A DNA stretch of 64,000 bases from Mesorhizobium japonicum MAFF 303099. GTDB lineage: Bacteria > Pseudomonadota > Alphaproteobacteria > Rhizobiales > Rhizobiaceae. Of the stretch, positions 33,127 to 46,373 are shown one piece after another. The translations under genes and the position numbers were made by a program. Each line of letters starts with the position of its first letter. Within the stretch, counting starts at the first letter, position 1. Location: positions 6,480,001-6,544,000 of the forward strand of contig NC_002678.2 in NCBI RefSeq assembly GCF_000009625.1. The letters are read 5' to 3'. Under the pieces are notes generated by a model that had not been told where the DNA came from, made no database searches, and saw nothing but the letters and a program-made list of their open reading frames with translations.

Positions 33127-33645
33127 CTACTCTTGTGCCTTGATCCGTTTCTCTTTCCAGCTGACGTAGTCGCCGTGTTTCAAATTCATGAATTCGTCCC
33201 CCAGGTTGCGATGCGAACTTCGGAAGACGTACCAGTCGCCATCCGGTAATTTGCGCTGGTAGAGCACCCGGCCGGCCTGGCGATGCTCGAAGCAGGTGAG
33301 GGCGTTGGAGTCACCCCCCGCGCCATGCCATTTTGCCCGGAAGCAAAGCTTGCCGCCGCCGGGAATGAACCAGATCCCGTCACCATAACCCAGCTTGCCG
33401 TTGTCCGAAGTCCAGGCGCTGAATTGACGGCGCTGAACGGCAAAATAGCCCGCACCATTTCCACCCCAGAGCCATGAACGGTTCTGGTACATCTGGTAGA
33501 TGCCCTCGTCAGGCACCGCCTCGGCCTTCATGGCCAGGTCAGCGGTTTGCGACGCCGTCTTGGATGTTGCCGGAAGCTGGAAAGCCAAGACGGCTATGGA
33601 ACAGGCAAGTGCCGTTCCAATGGAATTCCCCAATACTCGTTTCAC
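33127..33645 (-). CDS. DUF995-like secreted protein (paralogue 1)
   Basis: A 172-residue exported protein with a hydrophobic N-terminal segment (ALACSIAVLAFQLPATS) and a C-terminal DUF995-type domain: SWLWGGNGAGYF, FSAWTS, GKLCFRAKWH, CFEHR, LPDGDWYVF and LGDEFMNLKHGD. Function unknown; in rhizobia such genes often lie in polysaccharide loci. I start at GTG 33645 after GGGG; a longer in-frame reading would remove the signal peptide from the N-terminus. It lies 67 bp after the GH26-like gene, probably in one transcript. A paralogue is at 38231-38830. Confidence 0.82.
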   Translation of the reverse strand: MKRVLGNSIGTALACSIAVLAFQLPATSKTASQTADLAMKAEAVPDEGIYQMYQNRSWLWGGNGAGYFAVQRRQFSAWTSDNGKLGYGDGIWFIPGGGKLCFRAKWHGAGGDSNALTCFEHRQAGRVLYQRKLPDGDWYVFRSSHRNLGDEFMNLKHGDYVSWKEKRIKAQE

Positions 33646-33712
33646 GACCCCACCCCTACAATTTACGCTACGCTCAGTTTTTACGCTTGTACTTGAACCT
33701 GACAAAGTACGC

Positions 33713-34636
33713 CTAGGGCAGGACGTGCTGGGTAACCCTCCAATCGGGCAGCCCATAGACGCCCAGCCATGGCCACACCTCCTTCTGGTTGAAGTAGACG
33801 ACCGAGGTCAGGGCCGGAAACTCCGAATAGGACTTGCGGGAATCGGCCTCCCATTGCGAAACATAGTCCTGCTTCCCGACATAGCCGAGTTCCGCCACCA
33901 CGACCGGCTTGTTGAAGCCCGCGACGCGGTCATATCCCGGCTTCAGGCTCTCCGCGAAGGTACGGTCACGGCCGGCCTCGTCATTGTCCTTTTTCTGCAG
34001 GCCGAATACCGACAGGCCGATGACGTCGACATAGTCGTCGCCGGGGTAATACTTCTCCAGACCCTCTTCGCCTTTGGGCGACCACATATATTTGGCGGCC
34101 GGAGCAGCCTTGCGGCAGAGATCGACCTCGCGCTTGTAGGCGGCGATCCAATCCTTGGGGGCCCAGTTGGCCCAGGTGAAGCGGCCGTTCTTGTCCTCCA
34201 TTTCCTGCGCCCAACGAATGGTGACGGGGCTCTTCATGGCCCCCACCAGGTCGCAGATCGCCTGCATGTTGGCGTCATATTTGCCGCTCAATATACCGTC
34301 GCGCAGTTCGTTCGGGGTGATACGCCAATCCTTTGACCAGGTCCAAGGCTCGATGGTGATCAAGAGCGACCGGTTTCGCTGAAGGGCATAGGCATCGGCC
34401 AAGGGAAGGGTCGCCAGATCGACGTCTTCCCAAGGTAGGAACAACTCCTCGATGCTGGCGGTCTTGTCGGCGCTGAAGTCGCCGTAAGGGTCATAGGATC
34501 CGAACGCCGACGCGGCGCTGCTCGTCTGAACGGGATCCGTCGCGGCTGCCGAGCCGGCGCCAGCCGAAGTCGACAAAGCGGCGCTGCCGCCCAAGGCCAA
34601 CGCGATCGCAAGCGCACTTACTGCGATATGTTTCAT
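33713..34636 (-). CDS. GH26-like secreted beta-glycanase
   Basis: A 307-residue clan-A glycoside hydrolase resembling family GH26 (beta-mannanase group). It starts MKHIAVSALAIALALGG after GGGAG, giving a signal peptide cut near residue 28. The acid/base Glu is probably in RWAQEMEDKNGRF and the nucleophile Glu in VVVAELGY; the aromatic IEPWTW and KYMWSPKGE segments fit substrate-binding strands. In a polysaccharide locus such an enzyme trims or releases the nascent polymer. It is transcribed divergently from the GT2 synthase, and its upstream region carries one copy of the TAAG-N6-YTAAT motif. Confidence 0.82.
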   Translation of the reverse strand: MKHIAVSALAIALALGGSAALSTSAGAGSAAATDPVQTSSAASAFGSYDPYGDFSADKTASIEELFLPWEDVDLATLPLADAYALQRNRSLLITIEPWTWSKDWRITPNELRDGILSGKYDANMQAICDLVGAMKSPVTIRWAQEMEDKNGRFTWANWAPKDWIAAYKREVDLCRKAAPAAKYMWSPKGEEGLEKYYPGDDYVDVIGLSVFGLQKKDNDEAGRDRTFAESLKPGYDRVAGFNKPVVVAELGYVGKQDYVSQWEADSRKSYSEFPALTSVVYFNQKEVWPWLGVYGLPDWRVTQHVLP

Positions 34637-34924
34637 GATAATCTCCCATGGCTTCGATATCCTGCGGAAGTCGAAGCCTCGCCCACGCGTCGACAAGTGG
34701 TCGACGCTACCATCCAAAACCCGATCGGCTTTATCGGCGGAATCTGCGGGATTTCGGAGCGACGATTGGCGGGAGTGCTGCGCACGGATTCCCGCCAAAA
34801 AAATCATCTCTCAAGACGCCGGCACGAGGAGCTCAAGAGAAAAGGTTCGCCGCGATACTCACAAATTCGCGTCATATTCCGATATATTATCCCGGGCTAA
34901 TTTAAGAGCCGATCGTCATAGAGA

Positions 34925-34949
34925 GTCAAGTACAATTAACGGTTGCTTA
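34925..34949 (-). promoter_or_regulatory. Shared locus motif, copy 1 (ahead of the GH26-like gene)
   Basis: Minus strand TAAGCAACCGTTAAT (34935-34949), then five bases, then TTGAC (34925-34929) as a -35 box; TTAAAT about 18 bases on is a plausible -10. The motif is about 300 bp before the GH26-like start. Confidence 0.65.
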
Positions 34950-35142
34950 ATCATGATTCGCTGGGCATGGTTAACGGGCCGGCCTTGCCTGAATCCCGCC
35001 GGGAGCCTTTGGCCCATCGGCTATTTTCCAACGCTGAAAAATTTCACCGAACGTCTATTCCGGAGCCGGCCATTGGCCCCCGTGCCGAAAGTTTGGGCTC
35101 CCGTTCAAGGGGTTAGGTTAACCAACGCTGAAGAAGCACGGT

Positions 35143-35166
35143 TAAGCAATATTTAATTTAGTTGAC
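35143..35166 (+). promoter_or_regulatory. Shared locus motif, copy 2 (ahead of the GT2 synthase)
   Basis: TAAGCAATATTTAAT (35143-35157), four bases, then TTGAC (35162-35166). The last 13 bases TAATTTAGTTGAC are identical to the copy ahead of uxs. It is 99 bp before the GT2 start. Confidence 0.7.
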
Positions 35167-35255
35167 ACTAACGGAGCGACGGCCGATTCTGCTGCGGGGA
35201 TTTAAGGGGCCTTGCGGCAATCGTTGGCTGCAGCCCTAAGTGGCGGCGTAAGGGT

Positions 35256-37130
35256 ATGGGTTTAGACGTAGGCATCATCAGCCGTACGATCAGACAGGCA
35301 AGGCGGCCCGGGTCAGTTCTGGCCGACTCGGCTGAGAAGGCTCCTTTTCTCGTGCCCGTACTCTCTCCGATCCAGCAATGGATCCTGCGGACAGGCCTGG
35401 CTTTCTGGTTCGTCACTCTCGGTTTTTTCTGGGTCTGGTGGCTAAAGCCGGAACATATCGAACACATCGGACCATTCACCTTTGCCACGCTCGTGCTGGC
35501 TTGGCTGACCCTGATGCCGATGTACTTCCTGCTCAACGTGCACGCGTCACGGAAACCTTCAAAGCTTTACAGCGTCCCGAAGAGTTCGCGAGTCGCCATG
35601 GTGGTGACCAAGGCTCCATCCGAACCCTTCGCCGTGGTCGCGCGCACGTTGGAAGCAATGCTCGCGCAGGATTATCCGCATGACACTTGGCTGGCCGACG
35701 AGGATCCTTCCGAGGAGACGGTTCGCTGGTGCGATGCCCGCGGCGTGCTGATATCGACGCGGCGCGGCAGGGAAGACTACCATCGCAAGACATGGCCGCG
35801 CCGCACGCGCTGCAAGGAAGGCAACTTGGCCTTCTTCTATGACCACTATGGTTATGAGCGTTACGATTTCGTCGCGCAGATGGACGCCGACCATGTGCCG
35901 ACGCCGACCTATCTCAGGGAAATCCTTTATCCCTTCGCCGATCCCGCGGTCGGCTATGTCTCGGCGCCGAGCATCTGCGACAACAATGCCGCCGAAAGCT
36001 GGTCGGCGCGCGGCCGGCTGTTTCCGGAAGGGATGTTCCACGGCCCCTTGCAATCCGGCCATACCGGCGGCGGGGCGCCGCTCTGCATCGGCTCACACTA
36101 TGCGGTGCGAACCAAGGCACTGAAGCAGGCGGGCGGTCTCGGCCCGGAACTGGCGGAGGACCATTCCACCTCGATGCTGATCAACGCGGCCGGATGGCGC
36201 GGCGTGCATGCGATGGACGCTATTGCCCATGGCGATGGCCCGCAAACCTTTGCCGATCTTGTCACCCAGGAATTCCAGTGGTCGCGCAGCCTGATGACGA
36301 TCCTGCTCGAATATTCGCCCACATACTTTCCCAAACTGTCGCCGAGACTGCGGTTCCAGTTCCTGTTCTGCCAGCTCTGGTATCCGCTGTTCGCCGTCTT
36401 TGCGCTGTTGATGTACGCAATGCCGACGTATGCGCTGTTCACCGGGCGCAACTTTGCCAACGTCATGTATGCCGACTTCCTCTTCTACTACCTGCCCAAC
36501 GCCGTCGCCCTGGTTGGCCTGGTCATGATGCTGAAGGCATTCGGCCTCTCGCGGCCGATGACGGCCAAGACGATAAGTTGGGAAGGCACGCTGTTCCTCT
36601 TCTTCGCCCGCTGGCCGTGGGTGCTGGTCGGCACGGTGTCGTCGGTGCGCGACTATCTGACCAAGTCGTTCGTGGATTTTCGCGTCACGCCAAAAGGCAG
36701 TGGCCCAAAGAGCCTGATTCCGTTGCGCGCCTTCGTTCCTTATGTGGTGCTGGCGGTCGGTGCGGCGCTGCCTGTCCTGCTCATCGACCACCCCTTCGAC
36801 GCCACCGGCTTCTACTGGTTCGCTGCCCTCAACGCCTTCCTCTACGGGCTTCTGGTGTTGGTCATCGTTGTAAGGCATGTCATCGAGAACCGGATCCCGC
36901 TGCGTGCCAATGCCGCGAAACTCGCCTTTCAGGCATCGCTCACTATGCTGGCGCTTGCCGTGCCGGCCATGGGTTTTTACGATCGTGGCATGGAGGGCGT
37001 CTACGGGCTGCAGCAGGGAGTGGGGGGCTTCCGCATCGTGCGCATCGCCTATGTGGTTTCCGGCGCCGGCCAGGGCAACATCGGCACCCGCAATTTCTAC
37101 TTCGATCCGGGTTGGGAAGCGCGGCGCTGA
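35256..37130 (+). CDS. GT2-family processive glycosyltransferase (cellulose-synthase-like, possible ApsS counterpart)
   Basis: A 624-residue membrane glycosyltransferase with two N-terminal helices (about 42-63 and 70-92), a cytoplasmic GT-A domain and about six C-terminal helices. Motifs: ADEDPS, DxD-type MDADH (nucleotide-sugar/metal), LAEDHST as the general-base motif, and QEFQWSRS in place of the usual QxxRW. No PilZ domain follows, unlike BcsA. It likely polymerises and exports a glycan. Neighbouring uxs-uxe genes suggest pentose donors; an arabinose-polysaccharide synthase such as ApsS of S. meliloti is the closest idea. ATG 35256 is preceded by TAAGGG. Confidence 0.85.
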   Translation: MGLDVGIISRTIRQARRPGSVLADSAEKAPFLVPVLSPIQQWILRTGLAFWFVTLGFFWVWWLKPEHIEHIGPFTFATLVLAWLTLMPMYFLLNVHASRKPSKLYSVPKSSRVAMVVTKAPSEPFAVVARTLEAMLAQDYPHDTWLADEDPSEETVRWCDARGVLISTRRGREDYHRKTWPRRTRCKEGNLAFFYDHYGYERYDFVAQMDADHVPTPTYLREILYPFADPAVGYVSAPSICDNNAAESWSARGRLFPEGMFHGPLQSGHTGGGAPLCIGSHYAVRTKALKQAGGLGPELAEDHSTSMLINAAGWRGVHAMDAIAHGDGPQTFADLVTQEFQWSRSLMTILLEYSPTYFPKLSPRLRFQFLFCQLWYPLFAVFALLMYAMPTYALFTGRNFANVMYADFLFYYLPNAVALVGLVMMLKAFGLSRPMTAKTISWEGTLFLFFARWPWVLVGTVSSVRDYLTKSFVDFRVTPKGSGPKSLIPLRAFVPYVVLAVGAALPVLLIDHPFDATGFYWFAALNAFLYGLLVLVIVVRHVIENRIPLRANAAKLAFQASLTMLALAVPAMGFYDRGMEGVYGLQQGVGGFRIVRIAYVVSGAGQGNIGTRNFYFDPGWEARR

Positions 37131-37430
37131 CGCCCAGCTTCATCCGCGCAAAGAGCTCTCCTGACTGCACTCACCTTGATGGACGGCTTCGATTGCAGGC
37201 CGGCGACGTGCCGCGGCTTCAGTCACGAGCAAATAAGATCAAATTTTAATAATATCCGATCGAGCGCTGAAAGGCGGCTCTGACCATGCCGTTTGCGCGA
37301 ATTTTAATAAGTATCCCCTAATATTCAGACATGATGTGAGTGGCGGTTGGCTGTTCACGCGGCGCGGAAGACACCAAAGAAAAATATCTCCGCGTCCAAT
37401 CGAATTGCATTTCTCGGCAGGGGATAGGTG
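37131..37430. other. Leader of lipoprotein 1 (300 bp)
   Basis: This AT-rich gap contains the shared motif at 37308-37322 and a 120-bp leader that resembles the one ahead of lipoprotein 2 (39130-39248). No gene seen. Confidence 0.6.
37308..37322 (+). promoter_or_regulatory. Shared locus motif, copy 3 (ahead of lipoprotein 1)
   Basis: TAAGTATCCCCTAAT, 123 bp before the ATG at 37431. The downstream -35 is weak (TCAGAC), fitting an activator-dependent promoter. Confidence 0.6.
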
Positions 37431-37841
37431 ATGAACAAGTTGATGAGGGATTTGGCTGCCAAAGGCAGAAAAAACGCCTGGTCTATAGTCGCCATTGCAC
37501 TGATGTCGATCGTTTCCGGTTGTCAGAGCATGGACGCGACCACGACCGGCTCACTCGCCGGCACGCCTGCGGTGCATGCATCCGCCAAGAAAATCCACGC
37601 CGTCGGCAAGAAGCAGGTTCGCGTGTTCCACCACAAGCGCCTCATGCAGATGACCAGCGTCACGCGCACGACCGAGACGGCCTACGCCGCCTTCGTGCGG
37701 CCGCAGCCGGCCAGGATCGTCGCGCCGGCGCCGGTGAAGGTTTCTTACAGGCCGGGCAATGCTGGCCCGCTCCTGGGCCATTCGCCCTGGATCTGCGGTC
37801 CAAGCGGATTTGGCCAGCGCGCGACATGCCGCGCCCGCTAG
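37431..37841 (+). CDS. Small lipoprotein 1 with CxPSGFGQxxxC tail
   Basis: A 136-residue protein with a lipobox (MSIVSGC, Cys about residue 27), then a low-complexity middle, and a C-terminal motif SPWICGPSGFGQRATC. I start at ATG 37431; a GTG lies directly before it. Two further proteins in the window (39249 and 42258) share both the lipobox and the tail, so this is a real family although I cannot name it. The two tail cysteines, 11 residues apart, could form a disulfide in the periplasm. Likely attached to the cell envelope near the polysaccharide machinery. Confidence 0.75.
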   Translation: MNKLMRDLAAKGRKNAWSIVAIALMSIVSGCQSMDATTTGSLAGTPAVHASAKKIHAVGKKQVRVFHHKRLMQMTSVTRTTETAYAAFVRPQPARIVAPAPVKVSYRPGNAGPLLGHSPWICGPSGFGQRATCRAR

Positions 37842-38230
37842 CAAGAGTTCAGTTGGGGGCCGGAATCCGGGCGTGAGAGGTCAGGCGGCACGGGTCGCGC
37901 CAGTCACCTCCTGCGCCCGGATTTCCATTCGCGCCCATACCAATCGACAAGCGTCTTCGGATCGTCTTCGATCGGCTCTCGTGGCCTGACGTCGAAGCCT
38001 CAGGCCGGCCTGGTTTACCGGGGCTTGTCGATCCCTCGGCCTGTGGCGCCTCTTTGCGGCGCAAAAGATTGACATCGGTCTTTGCCCGGCTGTTAATGCT
38101 CGCAAAGTCAACTGCTGACCGCGCGACCTGGGAAATCCAGCATTGTGTCGCTGGAGAGAACGCTTCGTAAGTGGGCGTCCTGCGTCATGGTCGTGTCGGC
38201 GCTATGCTGGATCGGGGTACGAAAACCGAA
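37842..38230. other. Intergenic region between lipoprotein 1 and DUF995 paralogue 2 (389 bp)
   Basis: No supported gene, shared motif or terminator. The DUF995 gene may be read from the lipoprotein 1 promoter or from an unseen one. Confidence 0.5.
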
Positions 38231-38830
38231 ATGCGACCGCTGATTGCGCTGACAGTTTCGACCGGATTGCCTTGGCCTTGCACAAATCGTGAGCGGGAAG
38301 GCGGCCAGTCTGCCAGGCGTTCCTGGCTTTTGCCCCTGCTGGTCGTTTGTGGTCAGTTGGCGCTTTCCGGAGCGGCTCAAGCGGCCAACGAAAAGAACGC
38401 CAAGCCTGCTGAAGCCGACGCTACCGTGCCGACGGCTTTCGAGGTGCAGCGTCTCTACACCGACCACACATGGCTGTGGAAAGATGGAGCAGCCTACTTT
38501 GGACGGACCGGCCGCCCCTTCCGGGCCTGGACTTCGGGGCAGGATTCAGCCTCTGTCGCCGAGGGCAGGTGGCTGGTGACGAAAGACGGCAAGATGTGCA
38601 TGGACGCCGCCTGGCGGTCCAAGAGCTACAAGGGCAAGCAGCAGCGGATCTGCTATAGCCACCGCGTCAGGGGCGGGACCATCGAGCAGCGCAAGGATCC
38701 GGACGGGGACTGGTACAGTTTCAAACGAACCCCCGAGGACCTTTCCGATGAATACCGGAAATTCGAAGTGGGCGACACCAAGGGCGCGCAGTTCGAAGAG
38801 ACCCGCAAGCTGATCGATTCCAAGAATTAG
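38231..38830 (+). CDS. DUF995-like secreted protein (paralogue 2)
   Basis: A 199-residue paralogue of the 33127-33645 product, with matching blocks TWLWKDGAAYF, FRAWTS, GKMCMDAAW, CYSHR, DPDGDWYSF and LSDEYRKFEVGD. A signal peptide ends near ALSGAAQA; the start is uncertain because the N-region before it is long, and upstream ATGs at 38204 and 38231 both lack a good ribosome site. Function unknown. Placement between two related lipoproteins and opposite the GH26 unit ties it to the polysaccharide locus. Confidence 0.78.
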   Translation: MRPLIALTVSTGLPWPCTNREREGGQSARRSWLLPLLVVCGQLALSGAAQAANEKNAKPAEADATVPTAFEVQRLYTDHTWLWKDGAAYFGRTGRPFRAWTSGQDSASVAEGRWLVTKDGKMCMDAAWRSKSYKGKQQRICYSHRVRGGTIEQRKDPDGDWYSFKRTPEDLSDEYRKFEVGDTKGAQFEETRKLIDSKN

Positions 38831-39248
38831 GTCGTATCTCCAGCCAAACTGAGCCCGATGGTGCCTTGCGGCGTGGCCGGATTGAAGTTGTCGCGGCTGG
38901 GTTTCGCGATCCTGCTCCGTCCCATTGTGGCGAGTTGGCAGACAGTCAAATCGGTCTCTGGTTCGACGGCAGGCTGCCGGTGGGAGCCTGTCCGGGAACT
39001 TACGAATCACTTATCGTGAAGGCTGAGGGTGGGGTCCGACCGGAGTTGCCGGCGCACCGATCTTCGATGAATTGCATTCAATCCTAAAAAAACGGCGAGA
39101 GGTTGCGCCTAACTGCACGGTTTGTTTAATAAGCACTGTCTAATATTCGGCGTGATTGTAAGTGGCAGGCGGCTACTCATGCGGCGTGAAGGCAACGACA
39201 GCATAGAATGCCGCACCTCGCCCTTGGCTTGATAAGAGGGGATACGTG
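38831..39248. other. Leader of lipoprotein 2 (418 bp)
   Basis: No supported gene. The 3' part is a diverged copy of the lipoprotein 1 leader, including the motif at 39130-39144 and a conserved GGGGATA-N-GTGATGA start region. Confidence 0.6.
39130..39144 (+). promoter_or_regulatory. Shared locus motif, copy 4 (ahead of lipoprotein 2)
   Basis: TAAGCACTGTCTAAT, 119 bp before the ATG at 39249, followed by ATTC as in copy 3. Confidence 0.6.
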
Positions 39249-39662
39249 ATGAGCAATTGCGCAATGGGCGCATTTCGTCCAGGCAAATACAGTCTATGCA
39301 TTGTTGCGGCCGCGGCGATGATCTCGGGGTGTCAGGCCCTGGATGCGACCAAAACCGATGCGGTCGCACTCAAGCCTGTGGTCCACGCGCTCCGCAGCAA
39401 ACCTGTGGTCCTGCCGGTCTACGTCATGTCCACGGTTCATTCGCTTAGAATCGAGCCTGAGCTTCTGACGACGAGCACGACAGGGTCGACCGAAATTGAC
39501 CACGCTTTCGTATCACCGCAGCCGATCAAAATCGGCACGCCGGGAGCCGGGAAGATCGCCTACAATCCGGCCATTGGTGGGTCGTTTCCGGGCAGTTCGC
39601 CCTATATCTGCAGCCCCAGCGGATTTGGCCAGCGCGCCAGTTGCCACCCGCGTTATTTTTGA
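39249..39662 (+). CDS. Small lipoprotein 2 with CxPSGFGQxxxC tail
   Basis: A 137-residue lipoprotein: lipobox AMISGC (Cys about residue 28), then QALDATKTDA, matching QSMDATTTGS in lipoprotein 1, and the tail SPYICSPSGFGQRASC. ATG 39249 follows a GTG, exactly as in lipoprotein 1, and the leaders are similar, so gene and promoter were duplicated together. Its TGA stop is one base from the stop of the convergent epimerase gene, with no terminator between them. Function unknown. Confidence 0.75.
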   Translation: MSNCAMGAFRPGKYSLCIVAAAAMISGCQALDATKTDAVALKPVVHALRSKPVVLPVYVMSTVHSLRIEPELLTTSTTGSTEIDHAFVSPQPIKIGTPGAGKIAYNPAIGGSFPGSSPYICSPSGFGQRASCHPRYF

Positions 39663-39663
39663 T

Positions 39664-40695
39664 CTAGCCAGCAGCGAGGGATGCTGCCGCCTTGCTTGGC
39701 GGCAATTCCATCGGTTTTGTCCGCAATCCGAAGAATGGCGCCGCCGTCCTGACGATCGTGTCGATGTCGGAAAGCTGCGGCACAAAGCCAAGATGCGCGC
39801 GCGCCTTGCCCGGATCGGCATAGAGCTCTGCCGGATCTCCCGGGCGCCGGTCTCTGAAGACGGCCGGAACCGGTCTTGAGGTTATCCGGCCGACCGCCTG
39901 TATGATCTCCCTGATGGATACGCCGCGCCCTGTGCCAAGGTTGACCGCCAGGTTTTGTCCGCCGCCCTCGAGGTGCTGGAGCGCCTTCAGATGGGCGCGG
40001 GCCAGGTCGCTGACATGGATATAGTCGCGCACGCAGGTGCCGTCCGGCGTGTCATAATCCGTGCCGAAGACTTCGATTTCGTCGATGATGCCGGACGCCG
40101 CCATCAGCACCCTGGGTACCAGATGCGTTTCGGGTGAATGCCACTCGCCGAGTTCGCCGTCGGGATCGGCGCCGCAGGCGTTGAAATAGCGCAGGATCGC
40201 GAATTTCATCCCATAGGCGGACGCATAGTCGCCGATGATCTGCTCTCCCATCAGCTTGGTGCGCCCGTAAGGGCTGATTGGATTTTGCAAGGAGGTCTCG
40301 CGAACGGGCAACGCCTCCGGCACACCGTAGGTAGCGCAACTGCTGGAGAAGATGATGTTGTCGATGGCGTGCGCGCGTGCCGCGTCGAGCACGGCGATGG
40401 TCCCGGTCACGTTGGTCGAATAGTAATCGGCCGGCTCTTGAACGGATTCCCCGACATAGGCCAGCGCCGCGAAGTGGATGACGGAAATCGGCCGGTACGT
40501 CCCGATCGCCGCCCGCAGCGCATCCCGATCCCGGATATCGCCGACGACCAGCGGACCCCAGGCGACGGATTTCCGGTTGCCGCGGCACAGATTGTCGAAA
40601 GCCACGGGCAGATAGCCGGCGGCGGCCAGCAGCTTGCAGGTGTGACTGCCGATGAAGCCCGCCCCACCTGTCACCAGGATCGCCGGTTGGCTCAT
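39664..40695 (-). CDS. UDP-sugar 4-epimerase (GalE/Uxe type)
   Basis: A 343-residue extended short-chain dehydrogenase of the GalE family. NAD site GGAGFIGSH, catalytic Ser in SSSCATYG and YGRTK with Tyr and Lys. It starts [11 protein letters not shown], overlapping the uxs stop by four bases (ATGA). As the partner of a UDP-xylose synthase it may be a UDP-xylose 4-epimerase making UDP-arabinose, as I recall for the S. meliloti uxs1-uxe pair, where the epimerase also acts on UDP-glucose/galactose. The motif alone cannot separate galE from uxe. Confidence 0.88.
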
Positions 40696-41732
40696 GAAGC
40701 CGCGGCCCCGGTGATCATCCGGCTGCCGTAGAGCAGGGTGTCGAAATAGTCGACGGTATGGGCGAGCCCCTGGGCCAGGTTGATCCTCGGCTCCCAACCG
40801 AGATTATCCCTGGCAAAGGAAATATCCGGTTTGCGCTGCCTTGGATCGTCGATCGGCAGCGGCCGATGCACGATTTTCGATCTCGAGTTGGTGTAGCCGA
40901 CGACCAGCGTCGCGAGTTCCATGATGGTGAATTCACCGGGGTTGCCGAGATTGACCGGATGGGCGGGCGCATGCGGCGCATTCATCAGCCGGATGAAGCC
41001 CTCGATCAGGTCGTCGGCGTAGCAGAAGGAGCGGGTCTGCAGGCCGCTGCCATACACGGTCAGGTCTTCGCCGCGCAAGGCCTGGACGATGAAGTTCGAG
41101 ACCACGCGCCCATCATCGGGCTGCATGCGGCGGCCGTAAGTGTTGAAGATGCGGGCAACGCGGATGTCGAGCCCATATGTCCTCGAATAGTCGAAGAACA
41201 GGGTTTCGGCCGAACGCTTGCCTTCATCATAGCAGGACCGTGGTCCATGCGTGTTGACGTTGCCGAAATAGCTCTCGGGCTGTGGGTGCACCAACGGGTC
41301 GCCATATACCTCCGAAGTCGAGGCCTGGAATATTTTGGCATTGCTCCGGCGCGCGAGTTCCAGAAGGTTCAGCGAACCGAGCACGCTTGTCTTGAACGTA
41401 TGGATCGGATCAGCCTGGTAGTGCGCCGGAGAGGCCGGGCAGGCGAGATTGTAGATCTCGTCGACCTCAAGGCCGGCAGGCAGCGGATCGACGATGTCGT
41501 GCTCGATGCAGGTGAATCTGGGATCGCGCAGAAGGGTGTTGAGATTGTATCTCTTGCCGGTGTGGAAATTATCCAGCGCGACGACGTCATACCCGTCCCG
41601 CAACAGGCGTTCACACAGATGCGACCCCAGGAAGCCTGCGCCCCCGGCAACCAGGGCGCGACGTCGTTTTTGGTGAGGCTCCCTTTGACCGATCCCGGAT
41701 CCCAGCTTCAGAACCTTGATGATCTTGCTCAT
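40692..41732 (-). CDS. UDP-glucuronate decarboxylase (UDP-xylose synthase)
   Basis: The 346-residue protein converts UDP-glucuronate to UDP-xylose and is NAD-dependent. Motifs: [10 protein letters not shown], the UXS signature [11 protein letters not shown] (catalytic Tyr/Lys), STSEVYGDP, and [10 protein letters not shown], all typical of bacterial and plant UXS. An N-terminal extension of about 20 residues precedes the Rossmann fold. It is first in the operon; a shared motif lies about 290 bp upstream of the ATG at 41730-41732. Together with the epimerase it supplies pentose donors to the GT2 synthase (inference). Confidence 0.9.
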
Positions 41733-42257
41733 GCTTTTCCCCTACGCAACCCGCACGCTATCGCCGCGCCGGGACAACAGCCCGGCGACGCCTTCAGAAA
41801 GTGACAAACCCTCCGCATCAGCGGATTCGCTGTTCATTGATGTGCGCTAATTGTTCTCTGGGTTCGCCGGGTCGGTGCCGCACGGTTTAAGTGCTGCCGC
41901 TCACCCGTCTCCAAGCCCCAAAATCGCGATCACACGTACAGTGCCATCATCGTCGATTGCTCGCCCAAATTGCACATCCCAACGCACTAAAAATATACCT
42001 GTGGAGATCATAGTCAACTAAATTAGTGGTTTCTTAACTATGGCAATTTGCGAATGGTTAACCTTCGATGGCTCGGCTTCGCAACGCCGGACTGTGAGCG
42101 TTCGGGGAGATATTCGTTGCAAGTCAATGGTTTGGGGCGGCCGCTGATGCAATGCCGGGGCAGCGGATGCCGAGGCCGCCACTCCATCGCGCGTCTCAGT
42201 CTGTGTCCGAGGAAATATACTTAGATGAAGAACAGAGCTAGGCGATCCCTGCGGGTG
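41733..42257. other. uxs upstream region (525 bp)
   Basis: No supported gene. It carries the shared motif at 42022-42036 on the minus strand, with TTGAC at 42013-42017, and an A+T-rich stretch around 41990-42060. The rest shows nothing I recognise. Confidence 0.6.
42013..42036 (-). promoter_or_regulatory. Shared locus motif, copy 5 (ahead of uxs)
   Basis: Minus strand TAAGAAACCACTAAT (42022-42036), four bases, then TTGAC (42013-42017). TATATT about 14 bases further is a short-spaced -10 candidate. It shares TAATTTAGTTGAC with copy 2. Confidence 0.7.
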
Positions 42258-45602: not shown

Positions 45603-46373
45603 CTATACTCCAGCGGCAACCAGCGCCGCCGGGGTGATGCCGGATAGCCGCCTGCTTTCGCGTATCAGATGGGCCTGGTCCGCATAGCCTGCCTCGATCG
45701 CCAACACTGCGACCGAGGTATCGCTGGATGCCTGCCTCAGACGTCGGTAGCGGTGAAAGCGCAGGATGCGGTCGAGCGTCTTTGGGCCGTAGCCGAAACT
45801 CCCCTCGAAACGCCGACGCAGCGTCCGCTCGCTCATATGCAAGGTGCGTAGCAGGAATGGCACCAGCGGCTTGTCGGCCGGCAGACCCCGGTCGATGACG
45901 TCAAAGGCAAAGCCCATGACGGCATCGGGCGCATGGTGGTGGTCTTGCGTGTGTGCGCCGATTGCCTTCTGCAATTGTCCCACCATGCCGGCGAGGTCGG
46001 GCACGGCGCGGACGTTGCCTGCCAGATGGCGCGCCCGCATACCCCAGAGGTCACCGAGGTCAAGGCGCTCTCCGACGATCTGGCTAGCCGGCACGCCTAG
46101 CCAGCCGGCGGCCGCCCCTGGCCGGAATCTCAATCCGACAATCGTCGTTCCTGACGGCAGTGTCTCGATCTGTGGCTCCCGGTCCGGTCCCGCGATCCGG
46201 AACCGGCCATCGATCCACTGCAAGTCGATCGTCGCATCCGGCGTTATCACGACCGGTGGAGCATCCCGGTCCCGCATGCGGTGGACCCAGACGGACGTGA
46301 AAACGGTAGCCAGCCGCCTGTCTGCGGGGCGTTCCTGGAAAAAGCCGGTGGTCTGCGCCAGTACAGCTTCCAT
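45603..46373 (-). CDS. AraC family transcriptional regulator
   Basis: A 256-residue regulator with an N-terminal DUF6597-like sensory part (TPDATIDLQWIDGRFRIAGP, VGLRFRPGAA) and a C-terminal AraC domain (LRTLHMSERTLRRRFEGSFGYGPKTLDRILRFHRYRRL, then AGYADQAHLIRESRRLSG). It is divergent from the VOC-DoxX pair, which it may regulate. The binding site is not evident. Confidence 0.92.
   Translation of the reverse strand: MEAVLAQTTGFFQERPADRRLATVFTSVWVHRMRDRDAPPVVITPDATIDLQWIDGRFRIAGPDREPQIETLPSGTTIVGLRFRPGAAAGWLGVPASQIVGERLDLGDLWGMRARHLAGNVRAVPDLAGMVGQLQKAIGAHTQDHHHAPDAVMGFAFDVIDRGLPADKPLVPFLLRTLHMSERTLRRRFEGSFGYGPKTLDRILRFHRYRRLRQASSDTSVAVLAIEAGYADQAHLIRESRRLSGITPAALVAAGV

Follow-up and report, generated by a model that had tools for sequence, protein, structure and literature searches.

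A paired site, most likely of the CtrA type, ahead of three promoters of an APS-type polysaccharide locus in Mesorhizobium japonicum

Which regulator controls the polysaccharide locus of Mesorhizobium japonicum MAFF 303099 that resembles the arabinose-containing polysaccharide (APS) operon of Sinorhizobium meliloti? The window analysed here, a stretch of 64,000 nucleotides (contig NC_002678.2, positions 6,480,001 to 6,544,000 of the forward strand), holds this APS-type locus. An initial annotation had described a 15-bp motif, TAAG-N-A-N4-YTAAT, ahead of five transcription units of the locus and proposed an undescribed regulon with one activator, naming CuxR-like AraC proteins or response regulators as candidates. 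The analysis presented below indicates that three of these units share a larger, paired module, and that this module is probably a site for the cell-cycle response regulator CtrA.

A 40-bp module at three promoters

Position, strand and gene orientation of all five copies of the 15-mer were confirmed. The chance expectation for the window is 0.01, none of 100 shuffled sequences reached five copies, and the G+C content, assumed before to be about 62%, was measured as 62.4%. TTGAC follows three of the five copies after 4–5 bp, and 13 bases, TAATTTAGTTGAC, are common to the copies at GT2 and uxs. The cluster in the window is real; elsewhere the bare 15-mer is near chance, with six of its 11 matches in the 7.6-Mb genome lying outside the window against four matches of the pattern read backwards, and it was dropped as a marker of a regulon; by the initial annotation's own criterion of random genome hits, the result speaks against the bare 15-mer.

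The actual unit is larger than the 15-mer: the copies at the GH26-like gene, GT2 and uxs belong to a 40-bp module, in which TTAACCA is followed by GGTTAA[C/G]-N6-YTAATT and then by TTGACT (Table 1); at each of the three promoters the TTAA of the distal TTAACCA begins 24 bp ahead of the TTAA of the proximal site. The initial annotation had correctly seen the 11-bp geometry of the element, but it merged two unlike classes and overlooked the 24-bp partner. Without mismatch the module occurs in the genome at these three places only, all in the polysaccharide locus, and a -35-like TTGAC lies 4–5 bp downstream of every one. With up to two mismatches, the pattern TTAACCA-N17-TTAA-N7-YTAAT gave five matches (reversed control one); the two outside the locus, one with a single mismatch and one with two, are overlapping registers of the same place between two flagellin genes, and neither 15-mer copy of the lipoprotein-like leaders is among the matches even at this threshold.

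Table 1. Coordinates in the window, and sulfatase-domain open reading frames (ORFs) behind the module in three related loci
Feature	Position	Strand	Basis or remark
Composite module, GH26-like promoter	34935..34974	-	distal TTAACCA and proximal TTAAGCAACCGTTAAT, 24 bp apart; exact pattern match
TTGAC, -35-like box, GH26	34925..34929	-	5 bp past module; sequence
Composite module, GT2 (apsS-like) promoter	35118..35157	+	exact pattern match
TTGAC, -35-like box, GT2	35162..35166	+	4 bp past module
Composite module, uxs-uxe promoter	42022..42061	-	exact pattern match
TTGAC, -35-like box, uxs-uxe	42013..42017	-	4 bp past module
Class B element, leader of lipoprotein-like gene 1	37308..37322 (to 37330 with AATAAG-N6-CTAATAT)	+	AATAAG-N6-CTAATATT; 17 leaders aligned
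Class B element, leader of lipoprotein-like gene 2	39130..39144 (to 39152 with AATAAG-N6-CTAATAT)	+	paralogous to gene 1 element
DUF995 gene, apsH-like	33127..33756	-	PF06191; 53% to apsH2
GH26-like gene, apsE-like	33713..34807	-	Pfam PF02156; blastp 53% to S. meliloti apsE
GT2 glycosyltransferase, apsS-like	35256..37130	+	60% to S. meliloti apsS
Small gene 1, lipoprotein-like by eye	37428..37841	+	ORF; no Pfam family
Second DUF995 gene	38171..38830	+	Pfam
Small gene 2, lipoprotein-like by eye	39246..39662	+	ORF; no Pfam family
uxe-like epimerase	39664..40797	-	62% to S. meliloti uxe
uxs-like gene, UDP-glucuronate decarboxylase	40692..41732	-	68% to S. meliloti uxs1
Module with sulfatase-domain ORF, L054	6697-9328		xylan-binding CBM60
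Module with sulfatase-domain ORF, L056	8234-10862		xylan-binding CBM60
Module with sulfatase-domain ORF, L057	10661-12154		ORF shorter (462 amino acids)

For conservation, uxs was searched in 31 Mesorhizobium genomes, and the 15 closest orthologues besides the window's own (79–96% identity) were taken with their surroundings. The core of the module stands without mismatch upstream of all 15 (16 of 16 with the window's own), so conservation in orthologous leaders, which the initial annotation had named as a test, favours the module; at the uxs-like genes of 14 less similar loci (L028-L041, 28–69%) no such core match was found. The module also precedes GT2 in 11 relatives and the GH26-like gene in 11 relatives. 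Among the 12 GH26 promoters the spacing is 24 bp in nine, 25 in one and 23 in one, and the distal part is missing in one. In three loci (L054, L056 and L057) a second module precedes a sulfatase-domain ORF in place of GT2, and tblastn detected neither GT2 nor GH26 there; within the 13.5 kb taken for a fourth (L053), GT2, GH26 and a second module were all absent. The alignment comprised 43 promoters: 16 of uxs, 15 of GT2 type (including the three sulfatase promoters) and 12 of GH26, with two GH26 rows off register by one. The TTAACC, TTAA and TAAT columns are kept in 39–43 of the 43, and the spacer varies freely. That this is a conserved regulatory element is nearly certain, and the earlier claim of a shared site with an adjoining -35 box thus stands, with strong conservation in the genus, for GH26, GT2 and uxs-uxe, but not for the lipoprotein-like leaders.

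Module plus TTGAC, with at most two mismatches, occurs in 17 of the 31 genus genomes (reversed control 0 of 31), and two of the listed matches behind this count (G014, G030) lie outside an APS-type locus. The exact module was found in three of 347 genomes of the order (G000, G015, G030); all three belong to the genus, which contributed at most nine genomes to that sample. In 84,980 species genomes there were 83 exact stretches, 80 of which were listed and fetched: 45 lie upstream of uxs and 28 upstream of GT2 (73 together), three are too close to the end of their stretch to be decided, and four are in three Winogradskyella records and one Atribacteria record. Apart from these last, the fetched exact stretches are from Mesorhizobium records, save three.

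Several further features of these promoters were noted. GANTC sites lie at 34923-34929 (GH26) and 35185-35189 (GT2). Counted by eye, TTGACTC, which contains GANTC, is present in 12 of 12 GH26 and 13 of 15 GT2-type promoters, the GT2 promoter of the window being without it, and GATTC lies at the -10 region of 14 of 15 GT2-type promoters. Through the GANTC sites conserved in two of the promoters, methylation by CcrM could act as a further cell-cycle input. Past the -10 region of uxs, a block at 41958-41976 (minus strand), TGTGCAATTTGGGCGAGCA, is nearly invariant in the 16 uxs leaders of about 250 nucleotides. A search of the leaders for known structured RNA gave five Rfam matches, every one below its gathering score.

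Resemblance to CtrA sites

A ctrA gene is encoded in the genome (NF045991, 424.8 bits against a cut-off of 350). The alphaproteobacterial CtrA consensus is given as TTAANNNNNNGTTAAC (PMC7003649) and that of S. meliloti as TAA-N7-TTAAC (PMC3616915). The TTAACCAT half-site and TTAA alone are described as variants, with activating sites near -35 (PMC6180460), and TTAA-N7-CTAA is likewise described as a CtrA site (PMC11264516). The proximal site of the module scores 8–10 of 10 for the consensus in 43 of 43 promoters, a partly circular score; at least 8 is reached by 0.3% of random 20-mers of the same loci and by 2.9% of AT-rich ones. The scores fall on the reverse strand for 11 of the 16 uxs promoters and 14 of the 15 GT2-type ones, and on the forward strand for 11 of the 12 GH26 promoters. 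As the site matches a described CtrA binding site, the proposal of an undescribed regulon is doubtful. The module shares with known CtrA full and half-sites the half-site sequence, the 11-bp period, the position near -35 and the presence at flagellin and ctrA promoters. It differs in that a second half-site precedes it at a constant distance of 24 bp, a -35-like box follows it, the proximal half is often CTAA and the targets are APS-type polysaccharide genes.

We propose that the proximal GGTTAA[C/G]-N6-YTAATT would be a full CtrA site with TTAA-N7-TTAA geometry, ending 4–5 bp ahead of the -35 TTGACT, and that the distal TTAACCA, 24 bp further upstream, would be a CtrA half-site. Both would be occupied by phosphorylated CtrA, with binding at the proximal site aided by the distal one, and CtrA would act on RNA polymerase at -35. 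The uxs-uxe pair (nucleotide-sugar supply), the GT2 synthase and the GH26/DUF995 proteins would then be switched together in one cell-cycle phase. It is likely that CtrA is the protein that binds the module; activation, cooperation of the two sites and timing are inferred, activation in a cell-cycle phase from the position of the module.

The same 24-bp pair is found at other genes. In five genomes, GTTAACC-N18-TTAA-N7-YTAA with at most one mismatch gave 28 matches against four in reversed controls: 15 in the APS locus (one off register), seven adjoining flagellin genes, three adjoining pal and three others. Flagellin genes are adjoined by the pair in all five of these genomes and pal in three. 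Of the genus genomes, 14 lack the APS module; these gave 23 pair matches against three in controls, with a pair by flagellin in 10 genomes (in one with a mismatch) and by pal in six, so that the factor binding the pair is likely present regardless of APS. Altogether, 15 of the 19 genomes examined have a flagellin-adjoining pair. When the spacing was left free, the genome of M. japonicum held 18 distinct places with TTAACC-N10..32-GTTAA. Six of them have the 24-bp spacing: four at GT2, uxs, flagellin and pal, one between a pair of outer-membrane beta-barrel genes and one ahead of an amidase gene. The enrichment of this spacing has a P of 8e-5, and with the APS places removed 4 of 15 remain (P 0.003). 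Upstream of ctrA itself the sequence reads GGTAACCATTCG...GTTAATCAT, i.e. GGTAACCATTCGTTTACGGGCATTGTTAATCAT, with 24 bp from TAAC to TAAT, and is identical in 21 of 21 genomes. These genes are in line with the published record. In S. meliloti, flaA, flaB and flaC are on record as direct CtrA targets, with CtrA binding to the flaA promoter and activating it (PMC4433202). CtrA sites are verified in the S. meliloti ctrA promoter (PMC3616915, PMC4433202), and for Brucella, binding of CtrA to the promoters of division, wall and outer-membrane genes has been reported (PMC10787603).

The pair in ctrA's own promoter speaks for CtrA over other OmpR-family response regulators, such as Rem/FtcR-like proteins, CenR or ChvI, one of which is an unlikely candidate for binding the module. 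Rem/FtcR is a flagellar regulator of the OmpR family, and regulators of this family typically use direct repeats whose half-sites lie about 11 bp apart. The genome encodes further members, the next best 37% identical to CtrA, and the pair places at flagellin, pal, outer-membrane beta-barrel and amidase genes partly concern envelope functions. Among these other regulators, the proper motif comparison covered CenR only. Its motif is TGA-N8-TGA, and in Rhodobacter it is described as acting at tolQRAB, not pal (PMC9275681). It thus shares with the module an 11-bp direct repeat near envelope-gene promoters, but it has TGA where the module keeps TAA (39–43 of 43 sequences), and CenR was set aside on this difference; an inverted repeat considered as a candidate in S. 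meliloti is also unlike the module. BvrR/ChvI was set aside because none of the quoted BvrR boxes that were compared, some boxes rather than the full BvrR/ChvI consensus, holds TTAACC (PMC10538546).

Several points besides the further OmpR-family genes weigh against CtrA or against its role as an activator here. The sites had been found by TTAA and YTAAT, which makes their consensus scores partly circular, and as a full CtrA site the distal part is weak (7–8 of 10 at uxs, 8–9 at GT2-type and 3–7 at GH26 promoters). In Caulobacter, the site of most CtrA-induced promoters coincides with the -35 position itself (PMC11264516), whereas the -35-like box here is downstream of the site, and CtrA can repress as well (PMC7003649). 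Four of the 14 genomes without the APS module have no pair at up to one mismatch, and at flagellin and pal the polarity of the module relative to the gene is opposite. The 24-bp spacing was already known ahead of the spacing-free search, in which the count of TTAACC...GTTAA pairs over all spacings did not exceed that of the reversed control (23 against 32), so that no general excess of such pairs was found.

CuxR and the two kinds of APS locus

By the similarity of its products, the locus is homologous to the S. meliloti APS operon, with 53–68% identity for uxs, uxe, GT2 and GH26 and 31–53% for the DUF995 proteins. A signal-peptide-like stretch and the onset of relatives' alignments place the true start of the GH26-like gene perhaps near 34636. 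In S. meliloti the genes form one operon, uxs1-uxe-apsS-apsH1-apsE-apsH2, controlled by CuxR, with cuxR divergent (PMC7902896). In M. japonicum, by contrast, they form several units in both directions, there is no adjoining cuxR, and the module is present instead.

Given this homology, a CuxR-like AraC activator might be expected to bind the module, as at the Sinorhizobium operon. M. japonicum does have a CuxR homologue, 51% identical to S. meliloti CuxR and matching structure 5nla with E 1e-122, which retains an RRWPR stretch; RxxxR is the motif for cyclic di-GMP (c-di-GMP). The gene lies about 1 Mb from the APS-type locus, not beside uxs, and adjoins a GGDEF-EAL gene (the two at L069 6230-9466, G000:C1, ~5.50 Mb); no APS protein match was found in the 18 kb around it. 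Over the 31 genus genomes, CuxR-like proteins (E<=1e-40) occur in 13 and the module in 17. Both are present in eight, the module alone in nine, CuxR alone in five and neither in nine. This dissociation implies that the module is independent of CuxR, and it largely refutes CuxR as the regulator. The module is also absent from the three genomes with cuxR beside uxs (G005, G007, G020) and from the cuxR-uxs1 gap of S. meliloti, and the 24-bp pair occurs at flagellin and pal too. We therefore regard control of the module by CuxR as very improbable.

In the same three genomes (loci L030, L029 and L028, respectively) the genes are arranged as in S. meliloti, cuxR-uxs-uxe-apsS, with uxs 72–74% identical to S. 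meliloti uxs1. Judged by gene order, this is a second kind of APS locus in Mesorhizobium. Two other places were considered for a regulator gene and set aside: the 4-kb insert of relatives, judged from that of L051, whose three main ORFs match a glycosyltransferase, LPG_synthase_TM and PMT_2, and the AraC gene in the window (45603-46373), which is of the DUF6597 type.

The lipoprotein-like leaders and the wiring of the locus

The copies ahead of the two lipoprotein-like genes are, by their sequence, a different element (class B), not the module. AATAAG-N6-CTAATAT is found in 17 leaders from 12 genomes, 88–116 nucleotides upstream of the start codons. Three copies at gene 2 contain an inverted repeat, ATTAG-N6-CTAAT. 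That a single regulator acts on all five copies, as first proposed, is improbable, even though all five fit the 15-mer, the class B element is itself kept in the 17 leaders, and seven of these hold TTAACC-N18-TTAA with two mismatches, ending in TTAA just ahead of the element, which blurs a clean division into two classes. The class B elements read TAAG (CAAG once, TTAG three times), continue into CTAATAT, have no preceding GG and score only 5–6 of 10 for the CtrA consensus over the 17 leaders. Moreover, the two leaders of the window, alike by eye over more than 50 bp, are paralogues and hence not independent, and the weak pair is found mainly in gene 1 orthologues.

The main interest of the locus is its different wiring, since the element most likely belongs to CtrA, as a paired site, and not to an unknown activator. 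On balance it is plausible that the APS-type locus is tied into the CtrA circuit by one paired 24-bp site that recurs at three scattered promoters, in contrast to the control by c-di-GMP via CuxR in Sinorhizobium, and that synthesis of the polymer would thus be confined to one phase of the cell cycle or to one daughter cell. The module ahead of a sulfatase gene in some species suggests that new polymer-modifying genes may have been recruited under the site. A literature search of titles and abstracts, with partial coverage, returned no report of CtrA control of such a locus. The locus would represent a case of regulatory rewiring, in which homologous polysaccharide genes of two rhizobial genera answer to different regulators, in one genus to an AraC activator that senses c-di-GMP and in the other, apparently, to the cell-cycle master regulator, and it provides a precise model of a 24-bp paired site that may be used to find CtrA targets in Mesorhizobium.

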